The notes under the pieces: generated by a model
What the model saw: the letters and a program-made list of their open reading frames with translations, nothing else
Told to the model about the DNA's origin: nothing
The model's database searches: none
Position numbers and translations under genes: made by a program
Shown here: positions 2,428 to 20,920 of the stretch, one piece after another
How the letters are laid out: the number at the start of each line of letters is the position of its first letter
Numbering within the stretch: position 1 is the first letter of the stretch
IMG/VR virus record: IMGVR_UViG_3300027467_000261
Location: 1-26,102 of that record
DNA length: 26,102 bases
Source: a virus
Direction: 5' to 3' (one strand)

Positions 2428-2623
2428 TATCCCTCTCTACATTCCAGAACGAAATGCCGGTGGCGAGGCTATTGCTGTCATTGATTACGGCGTCGAACAC
2501 GATCTCATGTGGGTCGTCATCATGGACGACACCGCTGAAGTCTGGGCCGTGCCGAACGGCAAGGTGAGAGGCTTTAAGAATTGGTCTGTTGGTCGAACGC
2601 TGGAGGGAAAGAATGGCCAATGA
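2402..2623 (+). CDS. Conserved small phage protein (73 aa), function unknown
   Basis: The protein has a clear beta-rich pattern: AIAVIDYGVEHDLMWVVIMD, then an EVWAVPNGKVRG segment. This resembles small proteins I recall beside replication genes of GC-rich podophages (VIDYG.EH...WVV and PN..VR motifs). The ATG at 2402 lies inside the end of the preceding gene (26-base overlap) and lacks a strong Shine-Dalgarno, so translation is probably coupled. Its 3' end overlaps the next start by 11 bases. No domain name can be assigned. Confidence 0.72.
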   Translation: MSLTQLNPSIPLYIPERNAGGEAIAVIDYGVEHDLMWVVIMDDTAEVWAVPNGKVRGFKNWSVGRTLEGKNGQ

Positions 2624-2813
2624 TTTGTTCGACTGGGTCGACGATCTCGACCCCGATACCCGCAAGCTGCAGGATCGGATCAAGTGGCTCGAGATGACCA
2701 AGAAGCGCTACGAGGATGCGCTCAACCAGATCATCTACGACAAGGAGGTCAATACGCTCGTGCGGGCTGTCGTCCGTGCCAAGCAGGCGCTGGGAGTGGC
2801 GAACGATGACTGA
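2613..2813 (+). CDS. Small helical protein (66 aa), function unknown
   Basis: The start is the ATG at 2613, preceded by GGAGGG at 2602-2607; an ATG at 2589 in the same frame has poorer spacing and would lengthen the overlap with the previous gene. The protein begins MANDLFDWVDDLDPDTRK and continues as a charged, probably coiled-coil helix (KWLEMTKKRYEDALNQIIYD, then AVVRAKQALG). It overlaps the next gene by eight bases (ATGACTGA). Nothing identifies a function; size and context are typical of phage early accessory proteins. Confidence 0.68.
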   Translation: MANDLFDWVDDLDPDTRKLQDRIKWLEMTKKRYEDALNQIIYDKEVNTLVRAVVRAKQALGVANDD

Positions 2814-4076: not shown

Positions 4077-7000
4077 TTACCTCGCAAAGTTGTAGGGGGC
4101 GGCAGCGCGCTCGCTGGCCTGGCGCTCGGCCTCGTTACGGAACCGGGCTCCGCCTGACACCATCCCAGCAGCCTTGTCCTTCTGGAACTTTTTGGCGAAG
4201 GCGCGGAACTGCGCGGGCGTCTGACGCTCTTCCTCGGGCAGCGTGGCGTTGAGCTGCTTGAGACGGTTGAGGACACGCACGCGCTCGCCTTCGTTCTTGG
4301 CTTCGGCGAACTGGTTCTTCAGTTTGCTCATCGAGCCGGTGACTTCACGACGACGCTCCGTCTCGGCAATCTGCGCACCCTTGGCAGCGCTACGCTCGGC
4401 CTGATCCGCCGTGCGGAAGCCCAGTGCGTTGATCGCCGCAGTGCCGATGCCAATCGGATCTTCCGTCTGACGACCAGACTTAGCGCTCGTCGAGCCTTCC
4501 ATCGCTTTGCGTGCGGCCTTCGCCGTGTCAGCGATGAACTTCGGCAGCGGCAGGAGCTCGGCGGCTTTCGCAGCCTGGCTTGCGTCTCCGTCCTTGATCG
4601 CGTCAGCGAAGCCGCGCGCGGCCTTGAACTGGTCGACGACCAGCGAGCCCGGCGCACCAGCGAACACGTTGAAGAGGTACGCGCCGACGTTCGTCTCGTC
4701 GTACTTCTTCGGCTCGCCGAATGTGAGCAAGCTGTCTGCGCCCAAGCGGGTCGACAGGTCGAGGCCAATGGCGCGGGGGATGATACCCTTGGTGATGAGC
4801 TCGCCTGCGGTCTTGCTTCCAAACAGGTTGGCTGCAGCCTCGCGAACTTCACGTTCGAAGTCGTCGTAACCACCGCCCAGACCCAGCGCACTTGCCGCCA
4901 TCACACCAATCTTGATGACCTCCATGCCGGGGACACCAAGCGCACCGGCAGCCAGGATCTGCACCGACACGAGGTGGGCGAGCTGCTTGCGGGCAACGGC
5001 GCGTTCTTGGGGAGAGGCGTCCTTGAACGCACGGTAGAGCATGTCGCCGAACAGGGCGTAGTACATCTGCCCGTACTTCTTGAACTGCAGCGAGATGCGC
5101 CAGATCGGATGGTTGAAGATCGCCGGAGCGTTACTCGCCGAGTAATCGCCCTGCGTGTTGGCCACCGCGTCGAACGCCATCTGCATCGCCTTCTCGGGCG
5201 AGGCTTTGCTCTCGATAGCCAAGCGATACGCGGCAATCGCCGTGACCGCGCGGTTGACCTGTTCGACGGCAGCGGGGAGCTGACGGGCGATGCGGTCGAC
5301 TTTCGAGAGGCCCATGGCCCACTTGCCACGGCCCTTGGTCACCACCTCGGCCACTTCCATCCCGGCGTTCTTGTCGATCATGCCGCGCTCGGAGAGCTCG
5401 TTGAGCAGGGCGGTCAGCGCCTGGCCGTCCGGCTGACTGCTGACGTTCTTCATGATCGAGCCCAGCACGTCGGTGCTGTCGATAGCCGCCTTGGCGAACT
5501 GCGTGATCGCCTGCTTGGTGTTGCGGAAGCCACCACCGATGGCGGCACCGGCACCAATCGAACGATACGCCTGAGAGATCGCACCGCCTGCCTGACCGAC
5601 ACCATAACGGCCCGACAGGTAGGGCAGCGTCATCATGGTGGGCTGCATCACCTGAAGGAACGAGTAGGCAGGCGAGGCCAGCTTGTCGATGTAGGACATC
5701 GTCATGATGTCGCGGATGATCGGCGAGGTCTCCTGCTCGGTGACCACGTTGCCGTCAACGCGGGCGCGCAGGTGCTGCACGATCTGGTCCATCGCCTGAT
5801 GGTCCTTCGTGTAGCGGGCGGCGTCCGTCAGCTTCTGCATCTCGGTGAACGCTTCGCGCACCAGCGGCATGTAGCGCAGCTTGCCCAGGTAACGGGTCGA
5901 CGCCTCGGCATAGACGAGGGTGTTACGGGCGAGATCGCTCGATGCGCCGATGAACCCGCGACGCGGGAGCGCACGCTTCTGCACGCGGTTGCCAGCCATC
6001 TGCCGGACTGCCGCCTGCTTCAGCGCCGTGAGCATCATCTCCTTCTGACCTTGGGAGATGCCCTCACGAGCGCTGATGGATTTGGCGATGGCGGCAAGGG
6101 CGGAGTTAGAGAGCTCCCCGCCAAACGTGCCGTCATCGCGCTTGAGGAGGGGAGCCTCGCTGATCTGGGCATACTTGCCCTTCTCGCTTTGGATGAAGCT
6201 CTCGGCCTCCGCCTGGGTGTCGAAGATGTGCAGCCCGTCGAGCTGCACCTTGACCCGGAATTTGTAATCGCTGCTGTCCGACGAGACCTCGCGTGCGGTC
6301 GGGCCAGACAGGATGAGCGGCACGCCGTCTTCCTTGGTGAAGCCAGCGCCCTTGGTCTCACGCTTCGCGAAGGCTTCCGCCATCTTGAGCGCGTCCTTCT
6401 CGGTCTTGCCGGTGAACTCAATCACACCGGGCTCGACCTCGACGCCGCCCATCAGATCGCCAATCGTGTCGCGCGTCTGAACGACGAACTCGCCATGCCG
6501 CATGAGCGGGAAGTAGTCTCCCTGGATGAGGCGCAGGGCGCGTGCATCCTTGAGCGCGTTGAAGATCGTCGAGTTGTTGATGAGCTCCTTGGCTGCATCG
6601 TCGAGCGTACCCTCCATCACCTTCTTGGTGATCGAGGCGCGGTCGGCGCTGGACAGGTCCATGTCATGCTCGGCGAGGATGTTGTCGACGAGCTGGCGCG
6701 TGATCTCGTTCTGCGTGTCGCGGTAGTAGGCGACCATGTCCTCGTAGAGCTGACGTGCGCCGGGGCTGGCGTTCTCAACCTGGGCGAAGCGGCGCTGTAA
6801 CTCTGGGAGTAACGCACGCGCCTGCCAGCTATCACGACGGTTGTCGCCCCAGTGCTCGTTCGGCCCGAAGAGGTTCGCGTTGAGCATCGTGACCGAGTTG
6901 GCGATGTCGGCGAACTCGTTGGCTGCCTCGCGGTTGTTCGCCGCGAAGTCCATGAAGCGCTGGGCCAGCTTCTCACCGCGCTCGCGCTTGTCGTCGGCGA

Positions 7001-10000
7001 ACGGACGGATGCGCTGGATGTTGGAGATGAGCTTCTCCAGAACGTCCTGGCCCCTCTCATTCACGAACGTACCGCGATACCACTGCCGGATTTGATCGAG
7101 CGTCGAGACGGCGAGCAGCTTCTTGCGGTTGCCGATGGTCGTCGGCGTCATGCTTTCTGCAAAGCCACGAGCGGCCTGCATCGCCGCATCGCGGGAGATG
7201 AATTGGCCCATCGCATCGGCAGCTTTGAGCTGCGCGTCGGCAGGCATGTTGCGCTGCGCGGCCATCACGTCCTTGGTCACGCGCATAACACCCTCGAGCG
7301 CCGTGAAGGTGTTCGGGGGCATGTTCAGGAGCTTGCGCACCGCGTTGACCATGGCATCCCACAGCGAACGCGCCGACCAACTCTGCATCCCGAGCTGCTT
7401 GGCCAGCTTGTCCGAGATCTGGATCTCGGAGAGCATCTTCTGGAACATGGGGTTCGAGAAGGCTTCAGCCACGAACTCGTGCATGTCGGTGAAACCATAC
7501 TGCTCAGTGAGCAGCGGGTTCTCACGCTCCTCGAGCGTGACGCCGAGCAGGTCGCTCATGCGCTTGCCGCCAATGACCGAGCGCACTTCGTCCGCGATAG
7601 CTTTAAGCGTCCCGAAGAACTGCTGGTCGTTGTCGAGCGCGATGGAAGTCAGGCCGTGCATGGCTTCGTGCGTCAGCACCGCAGTCGTGTGGAACGGGTC
7701 GGCCAGTTTCTGTGCTGACAGGACAATAAAGTCTGTCGTCCCTGCACGAGAGTAGAACGCATCGGCGTTCTTTGCGAAGCTCAAAACGTCCGCCTCGTCC
7801 AGGATCAGAACCTTCATGTTCGGGATGCGCGCGTCGATGCGCTCCCAAACAAACTTCATTACTTCCCGAAGTACCGGGTTCTCGATTTTGTCGAGGTTCA
7901 TCATGAACCTCTTCATCTCTTTGATGGTCGAGACCTGGAGAGCTTGGAACATCTCCCCATTACGACCAGGAAGTATGCCATTGTTGATGGCCTCTTCCCG
8001 CGTCATCGAGGGACCGCCGAAGGGGTCCGGGTTCTCGTTATAAAGGAACTGAATGAAGCCGTCGTCGAACTGCGCCCGCTGTGCAGCCGACAGAGCGTCC
8101 CAACGTTTGAACTTGTTATTGAGCCAGGTGACTGGGTTCAGACCACCGCGCGCGTTGTCGGCGAAATCCTCCTCCGACATAGCTGCCATGTACTCGAGAG
8201 CGTTGTTGTCAAACAGCGCCTTCTGCTCGTTGGTGAGCGTGTTCCAACCAGCCAGGCCATCCTGCAGTTGGAAGCCGTCGTCCTTGGTGTACGGCAACCC
8301 GCCGAGGATCAGATCGAAGTCGATCCCATTCTCTTCGGCGAGCGCCCGCGCTTGTGCTTCCGTCGGTGCACGGCGGCGCGACCGGTAGATCTGTTCTGGA
8401 GCCCGGTCAGGGTTGAACCCTTCGATGGTGCGGCGTACCGATTTTTTGATCTCGGGCGTCGAAGCCTTCTTCGTCAGGGCGATCTTGCCCTCGACCTTCG
8501 GGCGCAGGCCCTCGATCTTGCGCTTGCTCTCGACCTTGAACTTGCCTTCCTTGTTCTCGCCCTTGACGACGGAAGCCGCGACGATCTTCTCAATCAGATC
8601 GGCGCTGCCGCCCTCTTCGATACGGCGAACAGCGTCCTGCGCTGCAGCGCGCTCGCCCTCGGTAGCTGCCGCGTCATTGGCAAGCGCCCTGATCTTGTCG
8701 ATCTTGTCTTTGTTGCGCTCAAGCGCCTCACGACGCGCGCGGTCAAAGATGCTCTCGCGCTCGTTCGCGTTCTCGACGACTTCCTTCTCGTCGCGCAGGA
8801 CGATCTCGTCCTCGGCTTCCTGCTTTGCGATGAGCGCATCTTCAGGCGTTGCGTCTTCCGTCAGGTCGGCTTTGGCGTCGACGTCGCCCTGGTCCTGGCG
8901 GCTCGCCATCTCACCTTCAGAGCGGCGCTCCGACTTAACCTCGTCGACCTCGCCCTTCTTGATGGCCAGCTCGCGCCCCAAGAACGTCAGGATGCGATCA
9001 TCGCTGACCTTCTTCTTATTGGTCTTCATCTCGGTGCGAAGCGCACGCGCCTCGGTGAGGTAGGCGAGCTCACCGCTCACCGTGTCACCCAGCACCTTGC
9101 CAAGGATCTTGACGCCACGCTCCTTAGCTTCCTTGAGCATACCGTCGAGGCGGTCGAAAAGTGCCTGGCGCTCTGCGTCCGTCTGCGGGAACGACGTGTT
9201 CTCCGGCACCCACTTCTGGAAGAGTTCCTTCGCGGTAGCGTTGTCAGCTTCGCGCTTCGCCTTCTCTTCGTTGTCCTTGAAGGTGCGAGGAGCCTTTGGC
9301 TCGGCTTCCGCCTCCTTCAGGTTCTTCTGGATGGCCTTGTTCGTGGCCTTCTGATTGGCCTTGTTCGTCACAGCCTCGAGGATGCGGCCCGTCTTTGGCG
9401 CAATCTTCGGACCACGTTGCTCTGCAAGATCCTGTTCGCGACCCTCGATGCGCTCCTGGAGCACGGCTTGAGGGTCATCGCGCACGACGACTTGCGTATC
9501 AGCCGGAGCTTGTGCCGCGATCTGCTGCACGTCCTGCGCAACGGTCTCACTGGACGATGCAGCGTCCAGAACAGAAATGCCGTCCTTGAGAACCTGCACG
9601 ACCTTGGGATCAGCGCCGCGTTCCTTGACAGCTTTGACCGCCTCGAACTGCGGCGTCGCGCCCATCGGGAGGATGTCGTTAAGGCGATCAGCAGCGTCAG
9701 CCTTGCGGATGTAGGCAGGCTTCAAGCGTGCGGGGTTGTAGTAGACGATGCCATTCTTGACGAACACCTTCTCGATGCCCTTGGGCTTCTTCGGGCGCTC
9801 GGCTTCGGGCGTCGTGAACGGAATGTACACGGCCTGGCGGTCGCCAGTCGTGAGCATCTTGACCTGCTCTTGCAGTGTGCGAGGGCGCTCAGGCACCGGA
9901 CCATCAAGCGCTTCCACACCTGCCTGCATCGCAGCTTCATCAGCCTGCTGCTGGGTCTGGACGGGCGGAGCGGCAGGAGCCGGAGTAACGGCTGGCTTGG

Positions 10001-11315
10001 CGCGATTGGCGATGTCAGACGTGATGGCGTTGAACGCAGCGAACCGGGCCGGGTTGTCGCGACCCGACGTCGTCTTGAGCATCTCGGTGACGCGCGTCGA
10101 CAGCTCATCGGCCATCTCTGGCGAGAGCTCGATGCCCTGTTTCGCGAAGCGATCCAGAGCCATCTTGTAGAAATAGTTGTAAGCCCGTGGGGGTGCGGGC
10201 GGTGCGGGAGGAGCTGCCTCGCCAGCGGGTGGTGCCTCAGTCGGGGGAGTTGGCGTTACTCCGGGAGTAACCGGAGCAGCGGTGCTCGCTGGCGGTGCAG
10301 GCGGCGGAGGAGCTGCCTCATCCTGCTGCTTCTGATCGAGTGCGAACTTCGTGGCCGGGTCGAGCGGACCAGCGTCGGTCTTGCCGATACCGCCAAGAGC
10401 ACCACCGGCTGCACCGAGCACGCCACCAACCACACCACCTTCAATGGCAGCGTTGAGAGCCTTGATCCAGTTGCGCTGGCCGATGCCTTCGCTGACCAGA
10501 GCGTCCTGAGTGAGTACTTCGCCGGACCCACTTTCGAGGGCTTCCTGCAGGGCTTCGGTTGCAGCGCCGCGCTTTGCACCCTTGATGATGCCTTTGGCTG
10601 CTTCACCACCGATGCGCCGACCGAGCTGGCCTTCGAGGCCCCCCGTCATGTAGGTGATGGCACCCGCGATGATCGGAGCGTAGCCGACCGCGTCCTTGCG
10701 GAACTTCTCCTTGGCTACTTCCTGGCTGTCACCAGCCTCGATGTAGCTGCGGTATTTCTCACTCTGCATCAGAGTGTCGTGGTCGAGCTTCTCTACGTTC
10801 TCATAGATCTGACCAGCGACGTCGCCAGCGTTCTGGAGAGCGGCAGAGCCTTTTGCGGCAGCGCCAACAAGGGGAGCACGAGCTGCAGCGCCAACGCCCA
10901 GCAGGCGTAGTCCCAAGCTGACCGGCATGACGGATGCGACTGTCGCGGCCAGAGACGGAGCAGCCAGGGTTGACTTAGCCGCAAGGGCTCGACCGATGCC
11001 GACGTCCCAGATGCTAAGGTCATCAACGGTCTCAGGTAGGAAGGCGGCACCTGCTGCACGCTGGAAGGCGGGCGAGGTCTCCTTCATCTGCTCGTCGGCG
11101 AGCTCCTTGAAGGTTCGCCGTGTCTCTCCGCCAACCGCCCCATCAGTCAGGTATTCGGTGGCAGCAGCGATACCAGCGCCGACGTTGAGCGCACCGATAC
11201 CCAGGGCGCGACCATAATCGCCCCAGGTCGTGTCCCGCTCGTTCTCCGCTACCTCACGAGGAGGCTTCGAACCCTCAAACGTTTCGAAGAGGACGGAGAG
11301 ATCATCATCAGCCAT
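4077..11315 (-). CDS. Giant phage polyvalent / internal virion protein with zincin-like metalloprotease motif (2412 aa)
   Basis: The largest gene in the window. The N-terminal 310 residues contain several hydrophobic and Gly/Ala-zipper stretches (about 130-170 and 285-310), suited to membrane interaction during DNA ejection. A Pro/Ala-rich linker spans about 335-375, followed by long charged, helical regions. A zinc-protease signature HEAMH lies at residues 1216-1220, with EFVAEAF at about 1280-1286 supplying a likely third, glutamate ligand. The region from about 1790 to 2060 (SSDLARNTLVYAEAS ... NTQGDYSASNAP) resembles the large-polyvalent-protein-associated helical domains of phages, and hydrophobic helices follow near 2110-2148. 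Multi-domain polyvalent proteins are thought to be delivered with phage DNA and act on host or invader functions. ATG at 11315, 17 bases after the preceding stop. Substrate and delivery are inferred. Confidence 0.82.
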   Translation of the reverse strand: MADDDLSVLFETFEGSKPPREVAENERDTTWGDYGRALGIGALNVGAGIAAATEYLTDGAVGGETRRTFKELADEQMKETSPAFQRAAGAAFLPETVDDLSIWDVGIGRALAAKSTLAAPSLAATVASVMPVSLGLRLLGVGAAARAPLVGAAAKGSAALQNAGDVAGQIYENVEKLDHDTLMQSEKYRSYIEAGDSQEVAKEKFRKDAVGYAPIIAGAITYMTGGLEGQLGRRIGGEAAKGIIKGAKRGAATEALQEALESGSGEVLTQDALVSEGIGQRNWIKALNAAIEGGVVGGVLGAAGGALGGIGKTDAGPLDPATKFALDQKQQDEAAPPPPAPPASTAAPVTPGVTPTPPTEAPPAGEAAPPAPPAPPRAYNYFYKMALDRFAKQGIELSPEMADELSTRVTEMLKTTSGRDNPARFAAFNAITSDIANRAKPAVTPAPAAPPVQTQQQADEAAMQAGVEALDGPVPERPRTLQEQVKMLTTGDRQAVYIPFTTPEAERPKKPKGIEKVFVKNGIVYYNPARLKPAYIRKADAADRLNDILPMGATPQFEAVKAVKERGADPKVVQVLKDGISVLDAASSSETVAQDVQQIAAQAPADTQVVVRDDPQAVLQERIEGREQDLAEQRGPKIAPKTGRILEAVTNKANQKATNKAIQKNLKEAEAEPKAPRTFKDNEEKAKREADNATAKELFQKWVPENTSFPQTDAERQALFDRLDGMLKEAKERGVKILGKVLGDTVSGELAYLTEARALRTEMKTNKKKVSDDRILTFLGRELAIKKGEVDEVKSERRSEGEMASRQDQGDVDAKADLTEDATPEDALIAKQEAEDEIVLRDEKEVVENANERESIFDRARREALERNKDKIDKIRALANDAAATEGERAAAQDAVRRIEEGGSADLIEKIVAASVVKGENKEGKFKVESKRKIEGLRPKVEGKIALTKKASTPEIKKSVRRTIEGFNPDRAPEQIYRSRRRAPTEAQARALAEENGIDFDLILGGLPYTKDDGFQLQDGLAGWNTLTNEQKALFDNNALEYMAAMSEEDFADNARGGLNPVTWLNNKFKRWDALSAAQRAQFDDGFIQFLYNENPDPFGGPSMTREEAINNGILPGRNGEMFQALQVSTIKEMKRFMMNLDKIENPVLREVMKFVWERIDARIPNMKVLILDEADVLSFAKNADAFYSRAGTTDFIVLSAQKLADPFHTTAVLTHEAMHGLTSIALDNDQQFFGTLKAIADEVRSVIGGKRMSDLLGVTLEERENPLLTEQYGFTDMHEFVAEAFSNPMFQKMLSEIQISDKLAKQLGMQSWSARSLWDAMVNAVRKLLNMPPNTFTALEGVMRVTKDVMAAQRNMPADAQLKAADAMGQFISRDAAMQAARGFAESMTPTTIGNRKKLLAVSTLDQIRQWYRGTFVNERGQDVLEKLISNIQRIRPFADDKRERGEKLAQRFMDFAANNREAANEFADIANSVTMLNANLFGPNEHWGDNRRDSWQARALLPELQRRFAQVENASPGARQLYEDMVAYYRDTQNEITRQLVDNILAEHDMDLSSADRASITKKVMEGTLDDAAKELINNSTIFNALKDARALRLIQGDYFPLMRHGEFVVQTRDTIGDLMGGVEVEPGVIEFTGKTEKDALKMAEAFAKRETKGAGFTKEDGVPLILSGPTAREVSSDSSDYKFRVKVQLDGLHIFDTQAEAESFIQSEKGKYAQISEAPLLKRDDGTFGGELSNSALAAIAKSISAREGISQGQKEMMLTALKQAAVRQMAGNRVQKRALPRRGFIGASSDLARNTLVYAEASTRYLGKLRYMPLVREAFTEMQKLTDAARYTKDHQAMDQIVQHLRARVDGNVVTEQETSPIIRDIMTMSYIDKLASPAYSFLQVMQPTMMTLPYLSGRYGVGQAGGAISQAYRSIGAGAAIGGGFRNTKQAITQFAKAAIDSTDVLGSIMKNVSSQPDGQALTALLNELSERGMIDKNAGMEVAEVVTKGRGKWAMGLSKVDRIARQLPAAVEQVNRAVTAIAAYRLAIESKASPEKAMQMAFDAVANTQGDYSASNAPAIFNHPIWRISLQFKKYGQMYYALFGDMLYRAFKDASPQERAVARKQLAHLVSVQILAAGALGVPGMEVIKIGVMAASALGLGGGYDDFEREVREAAANLFGSKTAGELITKGIIPRAIGLDLSTRLGADSLLTFGEPKKYDETNVGAYLFNVFAGAPGSLVVDQFKAARGFADAIKDGDASQAAKAAELLPLPKFIADTAKAARKAMEGSTSAKSGRQTEDPIGIGTAAINALGFRTADQAERSAAKGAQIAETERRREVTGSMSKLKNQFAEAKNEGERVRVLNRLKQLNATLPEEERQTPAQFRAFAKKFQKDKAAGMVSGGARFRNEAERQASERAAAPYNFAR
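5130..5147. repeat. GTTACT palindrome copy, one mismatch
   Basis: GTTACTCGCCGAGTAATC: one mismatch in the right arm. It encodes G-D-Y-S-A-S-N in the polyvalent protein. Confidence 0.6.
6797..6813. repeat. GTTACT palindrome copy, exact
   Basis: GTAACTCTGGGAGTAAC, 5-base spacer. It encodes A-L-L-P-E-L-Q in the polyvalent protein. Confidence 0.75.
7858..7875. repeat. GTTACT palindrome copy, weak
   Basis: ATTACTTCCCGAAGTACC: two mismatches, 6-base spacer, inside the polyvalent gene. It is listed because it fills an interval in the series. Confidence 0.35.
10255..10271. repeat. GTTACT palindrome, best copy
   Basis: GTTACTCCGGGAGTAAC: perfect 8-base arms around a central G. It encodes P-V-T-P-G-V-T in the Pro/Ala-rich linker of the polyvalent protein. 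A lone half-site GGAGTAAC lies at 9982-9989. Confidence 0.85.
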
Positions 11316-11332: not shown

Positions 11333-13906
11333 TTAATCAACAGGGAGCGCACGCTTGCCGGAACCGAAGCGACCACGCGGGTCGTTCTGCGGGGCGTACA
11401 TAGGCGGTCGTGCCTGGGCCGGGGTCGTGTCTTCGGGGATCGGAACGGTGATCCGCTTCTGGCCCAGCGCGTCGATCATGCGACCTGGGACCGAGAGGAT
11501 GTTGATGTCGTTCCCCTGTGCGTCCTTGACCTGCAGGTTCTTGTTGCCCTTCTCGATCAGCGGTGACGGATCGAGAGCGTCAATGATACGGCGCGTCGTA
11601 CTAGGCTTCGGCGGCTCCTTCGGCTTGGAAGCCTCGGCCTTGTACTTGTTGCGCAGGCGAGCGATGCCTTCGAGCGTCTCGTCGTTGACGAACAAGCGCT
11701 TGCCGCCATAGACGACGCGACCCTTGGCGTCGACCTCGAGCCGGTACTCGCCGTCGCGGGCGATACCGTCGATGAACTTGGCGATGTCCACCCCGTCGAC
11801 GTTGTCGTTCTTGCGGCGGATCATATCCATCATGCGCAGGTACTCACGGCGCTCCGGCGTCTTGTCGAGACGCGGATCGTTCGCTTCACCCTTGTTGCGC
11901 TTGAGAGCCAGATCTTCCGGGCTCGTCACGCCGAGATACTCGTTCAGAGCGTCTTCGTTCTCGGACTTGCGAGCAGAATAGTTTTCCTTGTAGCCGGGGC
12001 TGTCCTCGACCTCATCGTAAACCTTCTTGGCGTACTCGAGCTTCAGACGCTGGCGCAGAGGCTCGATGGTCTTGCGAGCAGCTTCCTGCTCTTCCTTCGT
12101 CGCCTTGTAGGACGGGTCACGCTGGACGGTCGCCTTGCCGTTCTCGTCAATCGGCACGCCGAACTGCTCGAGGATGTCCGCGTTCTGGATGCGACGGCGC
12201 AGGACTTCGACCTCGTCGACCTCGTCCTCGCCCTTCTTGTTCTTCTTCGTCGGCACGTTCGGCTGGTTGAGCCTGCCGCCACCCTTGTTCGGGCTGGGCA
12301 CGGTCGCTGCCGTCGGCACGTTGCCAACGCCAAGGGCGCGAAGCACCTTGTCGCGATCCTTGCCGCCGACCTTGTCAGCGTAGGCAATGGCGCGGTCTTC
12401 CTGCGCCTGCACCGCACCCTTCACCTTCTCGAAGTACTCCTGCCACTCAGGGCTGTCGTCCCGGTCAGCAAGAGCCTGCGCGTAGGCGCGACGGGTCGTC
12501 AGGAGCCCACGCTTGATGTCGTCGTCGATGGCCGGGCCGGAGCTGCCACCACCCTGCGCACGGGTCTTCGCCGCCTTGCGGTTGCTTTCCCACTGGGTGA
12601 TGAGATTGAGCGACTGCTGCGAGTGAGCCTGGCCGGACGCCACCTGCTGGATGAGGCCCTTGAACTCCTGCGGCGTCGCCTCGACGCTCTCGACCACCTG
12701 GCCATCGCGGATGACGTCAGCCTTGATGTTGCCGTTCTGGAGAACGGCGGGCTGGATCAGGTCTGCGCCGGGCAGATCCTGCTCGTAGGTGTCCTTGATG
12801 ATCTTCGCGGCGGCGGGGAGATTGCCGTCCTCGAACGCCTGCATGGCCAGCATACCGCGCGTCTGCGAGTTGCGACGGTCATAGGCAGCCAGGCGGTTGA
12901 TGAGGTCTTCAGCCTTACCTTCCTCACCGCGCTCCGAGTAGTACTTCCAGATTGCCGCGACGCGGGCAGCCGACTTCGCCTGCGGAGGCAGACGGTTCTG
13001 CGGGTCGATGATGGCGTCAATCGCCTTGACCTCCTCGTCCTTCGCAGCGTTATCGCCGCGCAGGAAAGAGGCTGTGCGTGCATTGGTCTCGGCTTCATCC
13101 GGCACGCCAGACGGGGGCGAGAGCTCCTGCGACGCGCGACGGAACGCAGCCGCGTAACCCGGCATCGCCATGTCTGACATATCGCGGGCGACTGTGTTGG
13201 GGTCTTCATCAACCGGGGCCTCGGCCACCGGCTCTTGGTAACTTGCGGGAGTAACCGGGATGGCCTCTTCGTCCATCTCCGGGACCAACCCACCAACAGC
13301 GCCGATGAACGTACCGCGTGCGCGATAAGCGTCTTCATCGACCTCGGGGTCGACCTCAAGCGCTTCGTTCTCGACCCGGTCAGGCAGGGCAGGCAGGGTG
13401 CTCTTCGGCTTCGGAGCGTAGCCACCCTCGGGCAGTCCATAATTCTTGGGAGCAGCCGTATCCGCCACTGCCGGTTTCGGAGCAGCTTTCACAGCGGGCT
13501 TCGCAACAGGCTTGGCCGCACCAGAAGAACTCGGCAGCTCGTTGAGCCGCTTGATGTTCTTCATGATGGTTTCCATGCCCTTCAGGTCGCCCTTGCTCTC
13601 GGCAGCCTTGTAGGCAGCGTTGAGCCGACCGAAGGTGGTCTCACGCGGATTAGCTTCAGAAGTCGGAGCGGCAGCGGTGCTATCGGGAGCAGGCACAGCG
13701 CCTTCGGTTGGCTTGTCGCCACCAGTGAAAAAGCCCTTCAGAGTGTCGAGGAACCCGCCACCCTTCTTGCCATCGTCACCGCCGTAACCGGCGTAGATGT
13801 CTTCGGCCTCATCTTCCTTGTCGCGGGCATAGCGACTGCGGCGATTGGTTTCCGCGATGGCTTTGTAGCCAGCGGCGAAGTCGCGCATCTCCTGAGCAAA
13901 GGACAT
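11333..13906 (-). CDS. Putative internal virion protein (857 aa)
   Basis: Begins MSFAQEMRDFAAGYKAI, an N-terminus common among phage internal or core proteins encoded next to DNA-ejection genes. Residues 35-270 are low-complexity, rich in Pro, Ala, Gly and Glu. The remainder is highly charged and mainly helical (for example RLAAYDRRNSQTRGMLAMQA, then KKNKKGEDEVDEVEVLRRR), without a domain I can name. The ATG overlaps the preceding stop as TGATG, indicating coupled translation with the internal virion protein upstream. Position between that gene and the giant polyvalent gene, and size, suggest a second large ejection or core protein. The palindrome copy at 13238 is written into the low-complexity section (V-T-P-A-S-Y). 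Confidence 0.7.
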   Translation of the reverse strand: MSFAQEMRDFAAGYKAIAETNRRSRYARDKEDEAEDIYAGYGGDDGKKGGGFLDTLKGFFTGGDKPTEGAVPAPDSTAAAPTSEANPRETTFGRLNAAYKAAESKGDLKGMETIMKNIKRLNELPSSSGAAKPVAKPAVKAAPKPAVADTAAPKNYGLPEGGYAPKPKSTLPALPDRVENEALEVDPEVDEDAYRARGTFIGAVGGLVPEMDEEAIPVTPASYQEPVAEAPVDEDPNTVARDMSDMAMPGYAAAFRRASQELSPPSGVPDEAETNARTASFLRGDNAAKDEEVKAIDAIIDPQNRLPPQAKSAARVAAIWKYYSERGEEGKAEDLINRLAAYDRRNSQTRGMLAMQAFEDGNLPAAAKIIKDTYEQDLPGADLIQPAVLQNGNIKADVIRDGQVVESVEATPQEFKGLIQQVASGQAHSQQSLNLITQWESNRKAAKTRAQGGGSSGPAIDDDIKRGLLTTRRAYAQALADRDDSPEWQEYFEKVKGAVQAQEDRAIAYADKVGGKDRDKVLRALGVGNVPTAATVPSPNKGGGRLNQPNVPTKKNKKGEDEVDEVEVLRRRIQNADILEQFGVPIDENGKATVQRDPSYKATKEEQEAARKTIEPLRQRLKLEYAKKVYDEVEDSPGYKENYSARKSENEDALNEYLGVTSPEDLALKRNKGEANDPRLDKTPERREYLRMMDMIRRKNDNVDGVDIAKFIDGIARDGEYRLEVDAKGRVVYGGKRLFVNDETLEGIARLRNKYKAEASKPKEPPKPSTTRRIIDALDPSPLIEKGNKNLQVKDAQGNDINILSVPGRMIDALGQKRITVPIPEDTTPAQARPPMYAPQNDPRGRFGSGKRALPVD
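13238..13255. repeat. GTTACT palindrome copy, exact
   Basis: GTAACTTGCGGGAGTAAC, 6-base spacer. It encodes V-T-P-A-S-Y in the 857-aa protein. Confidence 0.75.
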
Positions 13907-15003
13907 CAGATAGCTCCTGGACGGGACACGAAGTTCGGACGCTCAGGTCCGGGCACGACGGCGACGTCCGGGATCGCACCGGAGCGCTGCGGCAGCTCCG
14001 TCTTCTCCTTCTTCGCCTTCTCGATCATCTGGTGCATGGTCTTCTCGCCGACCCAGGAGACGACCTCCTTCGGCACGACGAACTCGCCAGCGTTGAGACG
14101 TGCAGGCACATCGTCGACCGCCTGCCCGCGAGTGGGCGACGCCGCTTCGGGAACCGCACCGCCATCGGCGAGCATCCCAAGCGCCGTACCCTTCAATGGT
14201 GTGGTGAGCAGACCAAGCCCCATGCCGAGCGCGGTGCCGATACCAGACGAGCTCTGCTGGTTGGCCTTCCACGCATCAAGCGAGTTCTGGTAGCCCATAT
14301 TGAGGATGTTGCCCCACTGGCCGACGGCCTGGTTGCCCAGACCCTGCCACTGGGTGGCGGTGCCCATGGTGTTGGCACCCGATGCTGTGGTGGCAAGGCC
14401 GGAGTTGACCGCCTGGTTGCCGCTCTGAAGCGCTGTACCGTAGGTCGCTGCGACCTGGCCGGGATAGCCCTTGCCGACGTTGATGGCTTCGGAGCGAAGA
14501 GCGCGCTGGATCGCATCGACCTGGGCGTTCGCCTGGTTGCCCGCAGCCGCCGTAGCAGCCGCCTGATTGGTACGCACGCCGATGTCGAGGGCCGCGTAGC
14601 GCGTCGAGCTTGGGTCAATGCCGAAGCTCTCAAGGTTACGGGTTGCAGCCTGCCGTGCCTGCTCGAACTGTTGAGCGACGTTGGCTTCGGCGCGACCCAT
14701 CTCGAGCTCGCGCCGCTCGGCACTGCCATAGGTCTGCGCGTCGCGGATCAGATCCTGCTCGAGTGGCCTGTAATTCTGTTCGTAGAACGCTCGATCCCGT
14801 TCCGCAGCCAGTTGGTTCGCGTCCATGATCTCCATAGCACGACCGATGACACGGTCGGAGATCTCGCGATCCTGGGCGTACTGCTCTTTGGCCCAAGCAA
14901 GCTGTTCCTGTCCGAGCTTGTAGGAATACTCTGCAGACTTTTCAGAAGCGGCAGCGAGCTGGCTGTAATCCGGGGGTGGCGGAGCCTTAGATTTACCGCC
15001 CAT
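13906..15003 (-). CDS. Internal virion / DNA-ejection protein (365 aa)
   Basis: The N-terminus (MGGKSKAPPPPDYSQLAAAS), then a long helical region with EQLAWAKEQY and RPLEQDLIRDA, followed by NLESFGIDPSSTRYAALD and GYPGQVAATYGTALQSGNQA, matches a widespread family of phage virion proteins annotated as internal or DNA-injection proteins. The C-terminal section (about 276-315: DGG, SPTRGQAVDDVPARLNAGEF, VVPKEVV) is also typical of that family. It probably leaves the capsid with the genome and helps form the ejection conduit. AGGAGG seven bases before the ATG; the start overlaps the acetyltransferase stop as TGATG, and its own stop overlaps the next ATG the same way. The family call is firm; the exact role is inferred from relatives. 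Confidence 0.85.
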   Translation of the reverse strand: MGGKSKAPPPPDYSQLAAASEKSAEYSYKLGQEQLAWAKEQYAQDREISDRVIGRAMEIMDANQLAAERDRAFYEQNYRPLEQDLIRDAQTYGSAERRELEMGRAEANVAQQFEQARQAATRNLESFGIDPSSTRYAALDIGVRTNQAAATAAAGNQANAQVDAIQRALRSEAINVGKGYPGQVAATYGTALQSGNQAVNSGLATTASGANTMGTATQWQGLGNQAVGQWGNILNMGYQNSLDAWKANQQSSSGIGTALGMGLGLLTTPLKGTALGMLADGGAVPEAASPTRGQAVDDVPARLNAGEFVVPKEVVSWVGEKTMHQMIEKAKKEKTELPQRSGAIPDVAVVPGPERPNFVSRPGAI

Positions 15004-15443
15004 CAGGCAGCCTCCTCTTTCAAGAACGCTTTGCTGGGTCTGAGGTTCAGCCAGCGGCAGTCTTCGCGTAACATCGAGAGCACGAACAAGTCTTCGTCCG
15101 GGAACACGTCAGCGATCCTGGCTTCTATCTTAAACCCGAAGTTAAGAGAAAAGTCCAGTGATCGCTTATTGTTTGCTGGTATCTGAGCGAATACCTTCTT
15201 GCAACCAAGCTGCTTGAACATATAGTCGCAAGTCATCCACAACAGGTCGCGGTCAATCCATTTTGGGTTCTTACCCCAGATATGCACGTTTATGCTGGCA
15301 CCGGTATAATTGTTGAAAATCACACCACCGCGTAGTTCGCCATCGACAACACGGGCTAGGACCACATCCACTGCCGGGTTGAAAGTGACGCCCGCACCGC
15401 GTGCTACCGCGTGCCCATGCTCAGGGTTGTTGGTTACGATCAT
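15003..15443 (-). CDS. GNAT-family N-acetyltransferase
   Basis: A 146-residue protein with a compact GNAT pattern: strands around GGVIFNNYTGASINVHIWG (39-57), a helix (IDRDLLWMTCDYMFKQL), then the acetyl-CoA-proximal element with QIPANNKRSLDFSLNFGFK at 87-105. GNAT enzymes transfer acetyl from acetyl-CoA to amines. Such genes recur among the structural genes of podophages, where the substrate is unknown; a virion protein or a host factor are both possible. It overlaps the preceding small gene by 23 bases without a strong ribosome site, and is coupled by TGATG to the internal virion protein that follows, so its expression is late. Confidence 0.8.
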   Translation of the reverse strand: MIVTNNPEHGHAVARGAGVTFNPAVDVVLARVVDGELRGGVIFNNYTGASINVHIWGKNPKWIDRDLLWMTCDYMFKQLGCKKVFAQIPANNKRSLDFSLNFGFKIEARIADVFPDEDLFVLSMLREDCRWLNLRPSKAFLKEEAA

Positions 15444-19454: not shown

Positions 19455-20920
19455 CAGGCACCTCCCCCACCGTTGTTCGGATCGTATGGAGCGTAATTCG
19501 GGTTCTGGTTCACGACGCTGACGTCAGTGAAAGCCGCGGCAGCGACATTGTTCGAACCCAGGATCTTCGTGCCTGATCCGTCTGATGCGTAGTAGGTAAC
19601 CCGGACGACGTCGCCATAGGCCGTGGTGACCGGCAGTGTCAGGTAGACGAGCTTGTCTGGGCCGTCGGTGTTCACCTGGATCGGATTGCGCGGGACGGCG
19701 TTCACGGTGACTGCAAACTGAGCGATAGCCGGGGTGTTGTTCGTCAGCGCCAGATCGAACTTCAGGTTGAGGATGTTGTTGATCGCCGAGGTTGCCACGA
19801 GCTTCGGCACCGCCGTATCAACGCTGAAGTTGGTGACCAGCTTGCGGTAGAAGCTCTGAGCGTCGTTGCCCGCAGTGTCCTGGATCGCAGTTGTGTCGTT
19901 GCTGTAGGTCGGATCGGTGTAGCTGACGTAGGTCGTCTCTCCCGGCTGGATGGAACGTGCCAGAGTGAGCACGACCGCCTTCGCCGCCGCATCCACGGTG
20001 TATGAGCTGATGGTGACGGCGCTGCCGTTGGAGATAACCTCGAACACGGACTTGTTCGGCAAGTCCGTCGTCTTGAGCGGGTTGGCGTCCGTGAACCAGA
20101 TCGTGAGCGCCGCGTTCGTGACGTGCGCCTTTTCGAAGACCGGTCCGGTCTTGTCGAGCGTCTCGTTCGTGCAGGTCAGAGTGAACGACGGCGCGTCGTT
20201 GCCAGCCTCGTCCTGAATGGCGTTGAGATCGTTGCCTCCGGTTGGCTTGGTGTACGCCACAGTGACAGTCTCGTTCGGATCGGCGCGCTCGCTGAGAAGC
20301 AGGCCAATCTTGCGGTTGGGTCCGTCGACTGCAAGCGACGTGATCTCGAACTCGCGGGTTGCCGAGGTGATGCGAAACGCGGTCTTGAGCGGCACGTTGA
20401 CTGCGTCGAGCTTGCGCTCTTCCGTAAAGATGACCGTGACGAGCGCACCGTTGATCGTGGCAGATGCTGCGACCGGCGCGACAGTGTCCTCCGGCGTGAC
20501 GGGCGCGTTCACGGTGGGAGCGGTCGCAGGCTGCGGGATGCCGAGCTTGTAGGCAGCAGACCCGGCAGCGATGCGGGCGTAGGTGTTGTAGGCGGGCGTC
20601 GTCGTCGGCCCGACCCAGTAGTAGCGCTGGTAGCTGTCGTCGCGCACGGGAGCGCGGAGCACCTCAACGTCCGCGTCCTGGAACTCCATCCAGAACGAGT
20701 TGTTGAAGTTCGTCTTCTCGTAGGGATCGTTCGGGATGCGGTAGACCCGCTTCGCCGTCGAGCTCACCAGGTTGCGGATATACCGAGGGGTCTTGAACCC
20801 CTCGATGGACCCCGAATAGAGCCAGGTGTTCTGGGCAAGGGCAGCGCCTCCGTCCGGCAGCAGGCGTTCATCCTGTGCCGGGATCATCCCGCCAAAGACG
20901 TTGATCCGAAGCGCAACCAT
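19454..20920 (-). CDS. Phage tail protein, N-terminal half with three SwmB/Ig-like repeats (488 aa)
   Basis: The first 130 residues (RINVFGGMIPAQDERLLPDG ... ALAQNTWLYSGSIEGFKTPR ... RYYWVGPTTTPAY ... YKLGIPQP) match the start of a widespread phage tail/virion protein. Residues about 145-470 are three beta-sandwich repeats: each starts D-x-x-x-P or D-K-T-G-P, has a strand with G/N-A-L-x-V-x-F, and the first two close with AIQDEAGNDA or AIQDTAGNDA. This resembles SwmB/cadherin-like surface domains. Such Ig-like insertions in virion proteins often serve weak surface binding. The ORF ends in a Gly-rich tail (NNGGGGA) and is coupled by TGATG to the gene for the other half. The fold assignment is from pattern only. 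Confidence 0.78.
   Translation of the reverse strand: MVALRINVFGGMIPAQDERLLPDGGAALAQNTWLYSGSIEGFKTPRYIRNLVSSTAKRVYRIPNDPYEKTNFNNSFWMEFQDADVEVLRAPVRDDSYQRYYWVGPTTTPAYNTYARIAAGSAAYKLGIPQPATAPTVNAPVTPEDTVAPVAASATINGALVTVIFTEERKLDAVNVPLKTAFRITSATREFEITSLAVDGPNRKIGLLLSERADPNETVTVAYTKPTGGNDLNAIQDEAGNDAPSFTLTCTNETLDKTGPVFEKAHVTNAALTIWFTDANPLKTTDLPNKSVFEVISNGSAVTISSYTVDAAAKAVVLTLARSIQPGETTYVSYTDPTYSNDTTAIQDTAGNDAQSFYRKLVTNFSVDTAVPKLVATSAINNILNLKFDLALTNNTPAIAQFAVTVNAVPRNPIQVNTDGPDKLVYLTLPVTTAYGDVVRVTYYASDGSGTKILGSNNVAAAAFTDVSVVNQNPNYAPYDPNNGGGGA

Follow-up and report, generated by a model that had tools for sequence, protein, structure and literature searches.

Introduction

A virus record of 26,102 nucleotides (IMG/VR record IMGVR_UViG_3300027467_000261) encodes a 2412-aa protein with a single HExxH motif near its middle, which raises the question of whether this giant protein carries an intact protease and, if so, when and on what such an enzyme would act. 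The window analyzed here is the whole stretch of DNA, positions 1 to 26,102, and because it spans the entire 26,102-base virus record, that record is probably a fragment.

Results

A giant polyvalent protein at the end of an ejection gene run

The original prediction described a late polyvalent protein of 2412 residues at positions 4077 to 11315 and left its strand unstated. The open reading frame is real and lies on the minus strand, where its ATG is at 11315 and its end at 4077, and the plus strand of the same interval is broken by stops. The gene and its upstream neighbors are as follows.

4077..11315 (stop included), minus strand: 2412-aa large polyvalent and very likely ejection protein (ORF, PHROGs, NCBIfam)
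11333..13906, minus strand: 857-aa ORF, probable second ejection protein by position only (phrog_35176, unknown function)
13906..15003, minus strand: 365-aa virion structural protein, probable first ejection protein (phrog_8003, E 2.5e-83)
15003..15443, minus strand: 146-aa GNAT acetyltransferase in the same gene run (phrog_4470)

The 2412-aa protein matches phrog_37402 with 1015 bits, and its weaker PHROGs matches include a DarB-like one at residues 1781 to 2375. A Pfam scan returned nothing above family cut-offs, with no match to a T7-like RNA polymerase domain or to the SLT and lysozyme domains that are the hallmark of lytic transglycosylases and endolysins. Used alone as a query, the protein recovered one near-identical viral contig (L009), no match among genome contigs, and nothing better than E 3 among plasmids; a tRNA search of the window found none. 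The protein belongs to the large polyvalent proteins of phages, giant chains combining several unrelated domains: it joins a zincin to a tail-700 domain, and relatives carry ART, InPase, and LPD22 domains. This kind of protein is already known, giant zincin-bearing polyvalent proteins having been described in 2017 by Iyer et al. with the N4 virion RNA polymerase (vRNAP) zincin among them (PMC5512222), and the 2412-aa protein adds a member.

The gene order resembles that of podovirus ejection proteins in that the largest gene comes last after two smaller virion-protein genes (365, 857, and 2412 aa in order), of which only the 365-aa product has a virion-protein match. Rhizobium phage RHph_TM27A repeats this order, with a GNAT followed by a protein of ∼350 aa, a larger protein, and a giant one. 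The 365-aa protein resembles in position the virion protein gp64 of Burkholderia phage JC1, the 857-aa ORF sits where JC1 has virion protein gp68, and no PDB relative was found for either. The JC1 paper reports 332-aa, 510-aa, and 4515-aa (DarB-like) products in virions by mass spectrometry, the giant one with 51 unique peptides, and places the three genes after a 146-aa acetyltransferase gene with a few genes between (PMC9144972). The link to JC1 is indirect; its close Bcep22-like kin match the giant protein of Ochrobactrum phage POI1126 in the zincin stretch only. The Pfam Acetyltransf_4 score of the GNAT encoded in the window is slightly under its cut-off, and a GNAT gene likewise stands inside the ejection gene run in RHph_TM27A and JC1.

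Further upstream on the same strand are a probable tail fiber (phrog_5616, weak), two ORFs with matches to phrog_511 (internal virion proteins), and an endolysin. The ORF at window positions 19457 to 20920 has three SWM_repeat (PF13753) stretches together with an internal virion protein family match, and a primase/helicase-like ORF with DUF927 occupies positions 257 to 2221 on the opposite strand. Late expression of the giant gene, part of the original prediction, is suggested by its position at the end of this same-strand run of structural and lysis genes. By analogy with its homologs the 2412-aa protein would be packaged and ejected, and in all likelihood it represents the third ejection protein, that of gp16/vRNAP type, in a podovirus-like phage; the earlier idea of ejection with the genome draws support from homology to ejection proteins that cryo-EM or mass spectrometry detected in virions.

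A zincin fold with a conserved active site

Models and fold matches identify the central domain as a zincin, with the following features.

7281..7895, minus strand: zincin metallopeptidase domain, approximately residues 1141-1345 (models, fold matches, profile match to ejection proteins and zincins)
7656..7670, minus strand: HEAMH, residues 1216-1220, two predicted zinc ligands and predicted general base Glu1217 (motif conservation)
7476..7478, minus strand: Glu1280, predicted third zinc ligand (kept in all 11 divergent relatives; on a helix after the HExxH helix in the model)

Structure prediction and structural search by segment had been proposed as the check on a gluzincin-like protease. 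AlphaFold2 modeled the zincin alone with a pLDDT of 84.8 and a pTM of 0.78, and the secondary structure of the model runs helix, three strands, HExxH helix, Glu helix. Metallopeptidases come first in a VIA-align search of this model against the PDB, led by the catalytic domain of anthrax lethal factor (Z 7.9, 138 residues, 4.1 Å) and followed by SPRTN (Z 7.7), PPEP-3 (6.9), and selecase (6.8), with N4 vRNAP also listed; Z values below 8 lie in the range that VIA itself calls common. With Foldseek, neither model reached E ≤ 0.001 against any PDB entry; several metallopeptidases stood near the top for the zincin-only model. In BFVD, 18 entries reached that threshold, among them Vibrio virion RNA polymerases, a phiKMV-like internal core protein, internal protein D of a Bordetella phage, proteins from crAss-like phages, and others named large polyvalent. 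The secondary-structure order and the VIA metallopeptidase matches point to an intact zincin fold, and the suggested gluzincin-like combination of HExxH with a downstream Glu (Glu1280) in a large polyvalent protein is supported. No Pfam model matches the zincin of the 2412-aa protein, and among 52 zincin stretches Pfam yielded scattered weak matches, several falling on metallopeptidase families (DUF6782 in 5, SprT-like in 3, lethal factor in 3, and M78 in 1).

The HEAMH motif and the downstream EFVAEAF, at residues 1280 to 1286, are present as originally claimed, and HEAMH is the sole HExxH in the protein, where ∼0.005 would be expected from residue composition. We scanned viral contigs with the C-terminal halves of the 2412-aa and RHph_TM27A proteins and the patterns [HE]EFVAEA and FSNP[MA]FQ, neither of which contains HExxH, and kept 80 of 156 relatives, a set that includes L009 and other near-duplicates. 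HExxH is present in 79 of these 80 loci, and the exception (L036) is cut by the contig end. An 85% identity filter and the requirement of a stop inside the contig left 50 of the 79 loci; alignment A7 comprises the window and all 50, and alignment A3 the window and 47, with three loci of odd length (L054, L077, and L085) left out. Of 48 rows, 47 have E at position 1280 and one has D, but one of the fetching patterns contains EFVAEA, so sets derived from the 80 loci are unable to test the third ligand. For that purpose, 11 divergent relatives were hand-picked from 60 listed of 153 records obtained by tblastn with the phikF77 gp37 zincin. These were chosen without regard to the motif; all 11 have HExxH, and when read by eye all 11 have Glu at the position of 1280 and none at that of 1284, so the third ligand is likely Glu1280, not Glu1284. 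Conservation of the general-base Glu equals that of the two His ligands: the three residues occur together in the same 79 of 80 loci and in all divergent relatives. Because a purely structural zinc site needs no general base, this conservation pattern makes catalysis by the zincin of the 2412-aa protein likely.

Flanking regions and modular architecture

Three further segments were delineated.

4227..6221, minus strand: tail-700/PLxRFG domain, residues 1699-2363 (NCBIfam NF032893, 229.4 bits, cut-off 100)
10866..10967, minus strand: mildly hydrophobic Gly/Ala segment, residues 117-150 (Kyte-Doolittle peaks 1.4-1.6)
10383..10451, minus strand: Gly/Ala segment with conserved GxxxG (G297, G301), residues 289-311

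The model and the above-cut-off NF032893 match confirm the C-terminal helical domain of polyvalent type that had been anticipated. When the whole C-terminal model was searched against the PDB with Foldseek, it returned helical noise only (ABC transporters at TM 0.06), which we discarded. The anticipated Gly/Ala segments are also there, with G297 in 36 and G301 in 37 of the 39 aligned rows that have a residue at that position (alignment A5), but their hydrophobicity is mild only, with Kyte-Doolittle peaks up to 1.6 at residues 117-150, 289-311, and 2112-2146.

The length from HExxH to the C terminus is steady across relatives (median 1138, SD 73; n = 47 of 50), and that of the N-terminal part is variable (SD 299; n = 39 of 50). 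No Pfam family matched the N-terminal 1124 residues of the 2412-aa protein. Among the 40 rows scanned (the window and 39 of 49 listed stretches), the N-terminal part bore effector domains in some (ART-PolyVal in 4, and InPase, RadC, and GNAT in 1 each), and LPD22 and others turned up in single rows. The zincin and the remaining C-terminal region are separable modules, because the zincin of the DarB-like protein of Serratia phage Parlo (L100) lies ∼1,500 residues upstream of the match to the rest of the C-terminal profile.

The same zincin in phiKMV/PhiM1-type ejection proteins

Searched against PDB sequences, the A3 profile (48 rows) recovered 9sfn_G, named internal virion protein (9.9e-21), 8vb2_A (PhiM1 gp48; 3.4e-16), 23sg_S (gp10; 2.2e-11), and lethal factor (2.6e-4); N4 vRNAP is absent from this match list. 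The gp37 protein of phikF77 matches 9sfn_G along its full length, and tblastn with the phikF77 zincin reached schitovirus virion RNA polymerases (2e-8) and the Parlo DarB-like protein (2e-7). Many of the tblastn records bear the name “peptidoglycan lytic exotransglycosylase” or “internal virion protein with endolysin domain.” In phikF77 gp37 (L005, 3735-7748) no lytic domain is detected by Pfam, which does find a lysozyme domain in gp36 and, as a control, the SLT domain of T7 gp16 at residues 15 to 127; the labels on phiKMV-type proteins are probably a transfer from T7 gp16. T7 gp16 itself was rejected as a zincin carrier, its single HExxH (559) lying outside any profile match.

The PhiM1 paper names Asp268-Asp528 of the tetrameric ejection protein an endolysin/exotransglycosidase-like domain (PMC11440229), and its main text uses none of the terms protease, peptidase, metallo, or HExxH; the zincin match on 8vb2_A runs from residue 380 on, so that its start falls inside this domain. 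According to a 2020 paper, Phikmvvirus products include no predicted proteolytic domain (PMC7552054), the terms protease, zinc, metallo, and HExxH do not occur in an ejection-protein review (PMC8954989), and we found no paper in the open-access literature that names a zincin in phiKMV-type proteins. The zincin predicted by profile in phiKMV/PhiM1-type proteins annotated as “endolysin/exotransglycosylase” therefore goes beyond what we found in print.

A probable second zincin in N4 virion RNA polymerase

The zincin of N4 vRNAP is already known in print (Iyer et al., PMC5512222; PMC8472413; PMC12633501), and hhalign aligns this C1 domain with the zincin of the 2412-aa protein at a probability of 97.7%. 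Both N4 vRNAP rows of the VIA search nonetheless place the latter zincin on residues 2374-2579, not on C1 (Z 7.2, 142 residues, 4.9 Å; and Z 7.1, 149 residues, 5.8 Å, from 2378). Sliding hhalign windows along an alignment of N4-like C termini (six sequences, two of them almost alike) gave 97.7% for the HExxH domain and 72.6% for 2378-2617 (E 3e-5, a single comparison); from window 2538-2777 onward no value exceeded 3.3%. The region at approximately 2374-2617 of the N4 vRNAP (L089) directly follows the HExxH domain and has no HExxH of its own; the N4 paper describes C2 (2376-3500) as being without significant structural homology (PMC12633501). That this region is a second, degenerate zincin copy is a moderately supported conclusion, and it too goes beyond what we found in print. 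Between N4 C2 and the C2/tail-700 region of the family of the 2412-aa protein, hhalign found no sequence link, and we do not claim a like fold for these regions, the sole pointer to one being a loose VIA match (9pnr, Z 7.1, rmsd 19.3).

Discussion

What the zincin may do

We consider it fairly probable that the third ejection protein of this podovirus-like phage carries a zincin that is active after ejection. The 2412-aa protein would reside in the capsid and enter the host alongside the genome. Once there, whether at the envelope or in the cytoplasm, the zincin would act as a zinc endopeptidase whose target may be its own chain, partner proteins of the ejectosome, or a protein of the host. 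Of these we favor the ejected complex, meaning the protein itself or its partners, whose cleavage would fit the need to dismantle the channel after DNA entry. Cleavage after ejection is the leading, if unproven, reading.

An earlier time of action was part of the original prediction, which allowed for maturation of virion proteins. As proposed for P1 DdrB, which has an MPTase domain and is cut before packaging (PMC5512222), the zincin might process the 2412-aa protein or other virion proteins during assembly. However, N4 vRNAP, with its homologous C1 zincin, is reported to be packaged uncut, and its zincin-containing region to be needed for packaging (PMC5512222), so that self-cleavage before packaging is not general and is less likely here; the N4 paper also describes no evidence of degradation of recombinant full-length vRNAP (PMC12633501). 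We regard a maturation role as quite improbable. A fold and metal site kept solely as a structural or binding module with no peptidase activity is likewise unlikely: the apparent second zincin of N4 vRNAP, which has lost HExxH, suggests that the fold can outlast catalysis, but in the family studied here the general-base Glu is conserved like the His ligands.

It is possible, though we doubt it, that the zincin is instead an effector cutting host defense, transcription, or envelope proteins after ejection. Polyvalent proteins of relatives carry other, possibly host-directed domains, such as the InPase upstream of the zincin in RHph_TM27A, host-directed metalloproteases are among the closest solved folds, and Iyer et al. 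list this option (PMC5512222). The original suggestion was that the protease could disable host defenses; Pfam and PADLOC detect no defense-related domain in the 2412-aa protein. The phiKMV-like phage LUZ19, with a gp37 zincin region 92.8% identical to its phikF77 counterpart, offers a comparison: the host RNAP alpha subunit is cleaved there, but expressing only the GNAT Rac is reported to suffice, and no other degraded host protein is reported from 2D gels (PMC7552054), which argues against broad host proteolysis. The zincin is thus not needed for the RNAP alpha cut, and we set aside alpha cleavage by the phiKMV zincin.

Implications and comparison with known systems

We tentatively extend the postejection reading to a single zincin family that might be a shared ejectosome part of phiKMV/PhiM1-type proteins, schitovirus vRNAPs, DarB-like proteins, and PLxRFG and crAss-like giants, mislabeled as endolysin in phiKMV/PhiM1, duplicated into active and dead copies in N4, and serving, after genome entry, as a protease that takes apart or remodels the injected channel or its cargo; as a whole, this scheme is more speculative than the reading for the 2412-aa protein. 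How podoviruses dismantle the injected channel and what giant ejected proteins do are questions that bear on the zincin, and an intact protease site conserved across several phage groups makes its role testable by one inactivating point mutation. Our findings also suggest correcting the “endolysin” and “peptidoglycan lytic exotransglycosylase” labels on many phiKMV-type records, together with the 2020 statement on Phikmvvirus products cited above (PMC7552054).

Among solved peptidases, the best fold match, the anthrax lethal factor catalytic domain (15% identity), is a fold relative only, its delivery being unrelated. The phiKMV-type gp37 and PhiM1 gp48 ejection proteins have the same zincin by profile (HEAVH in phikF77 gp37) but are shorter, at 1.26 to 1.34 kaa, and phikF77 gp37 has no tail-700 match. 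The vRNAP gp50 of N4 (Schitoviridae) is likewise an ejected giant protein whose C1 zincin has HELVH at 2228 and an NEF Glu, whereas Pfam recognizes no RNA polymerase domain in the 2412-aa protein. Although its zincin lacks a Pfam model and its N-terminal half a recognized domain, the 2412-aa protein resembles the polyvalent MPTase proteins described by Iyer et al. in being a giant late multidomain chain with HExxH and a Glu on the following helix (PMC5512222). The RHph_TM27A protein QIG66915.1 differs in having an InPase (PF18823) upstream of its zincin but is 31% identical over its whole length and shares HExxH (as HEATH), EEFVAEAFSNP, the tail-700 domain, and similar neighbors.
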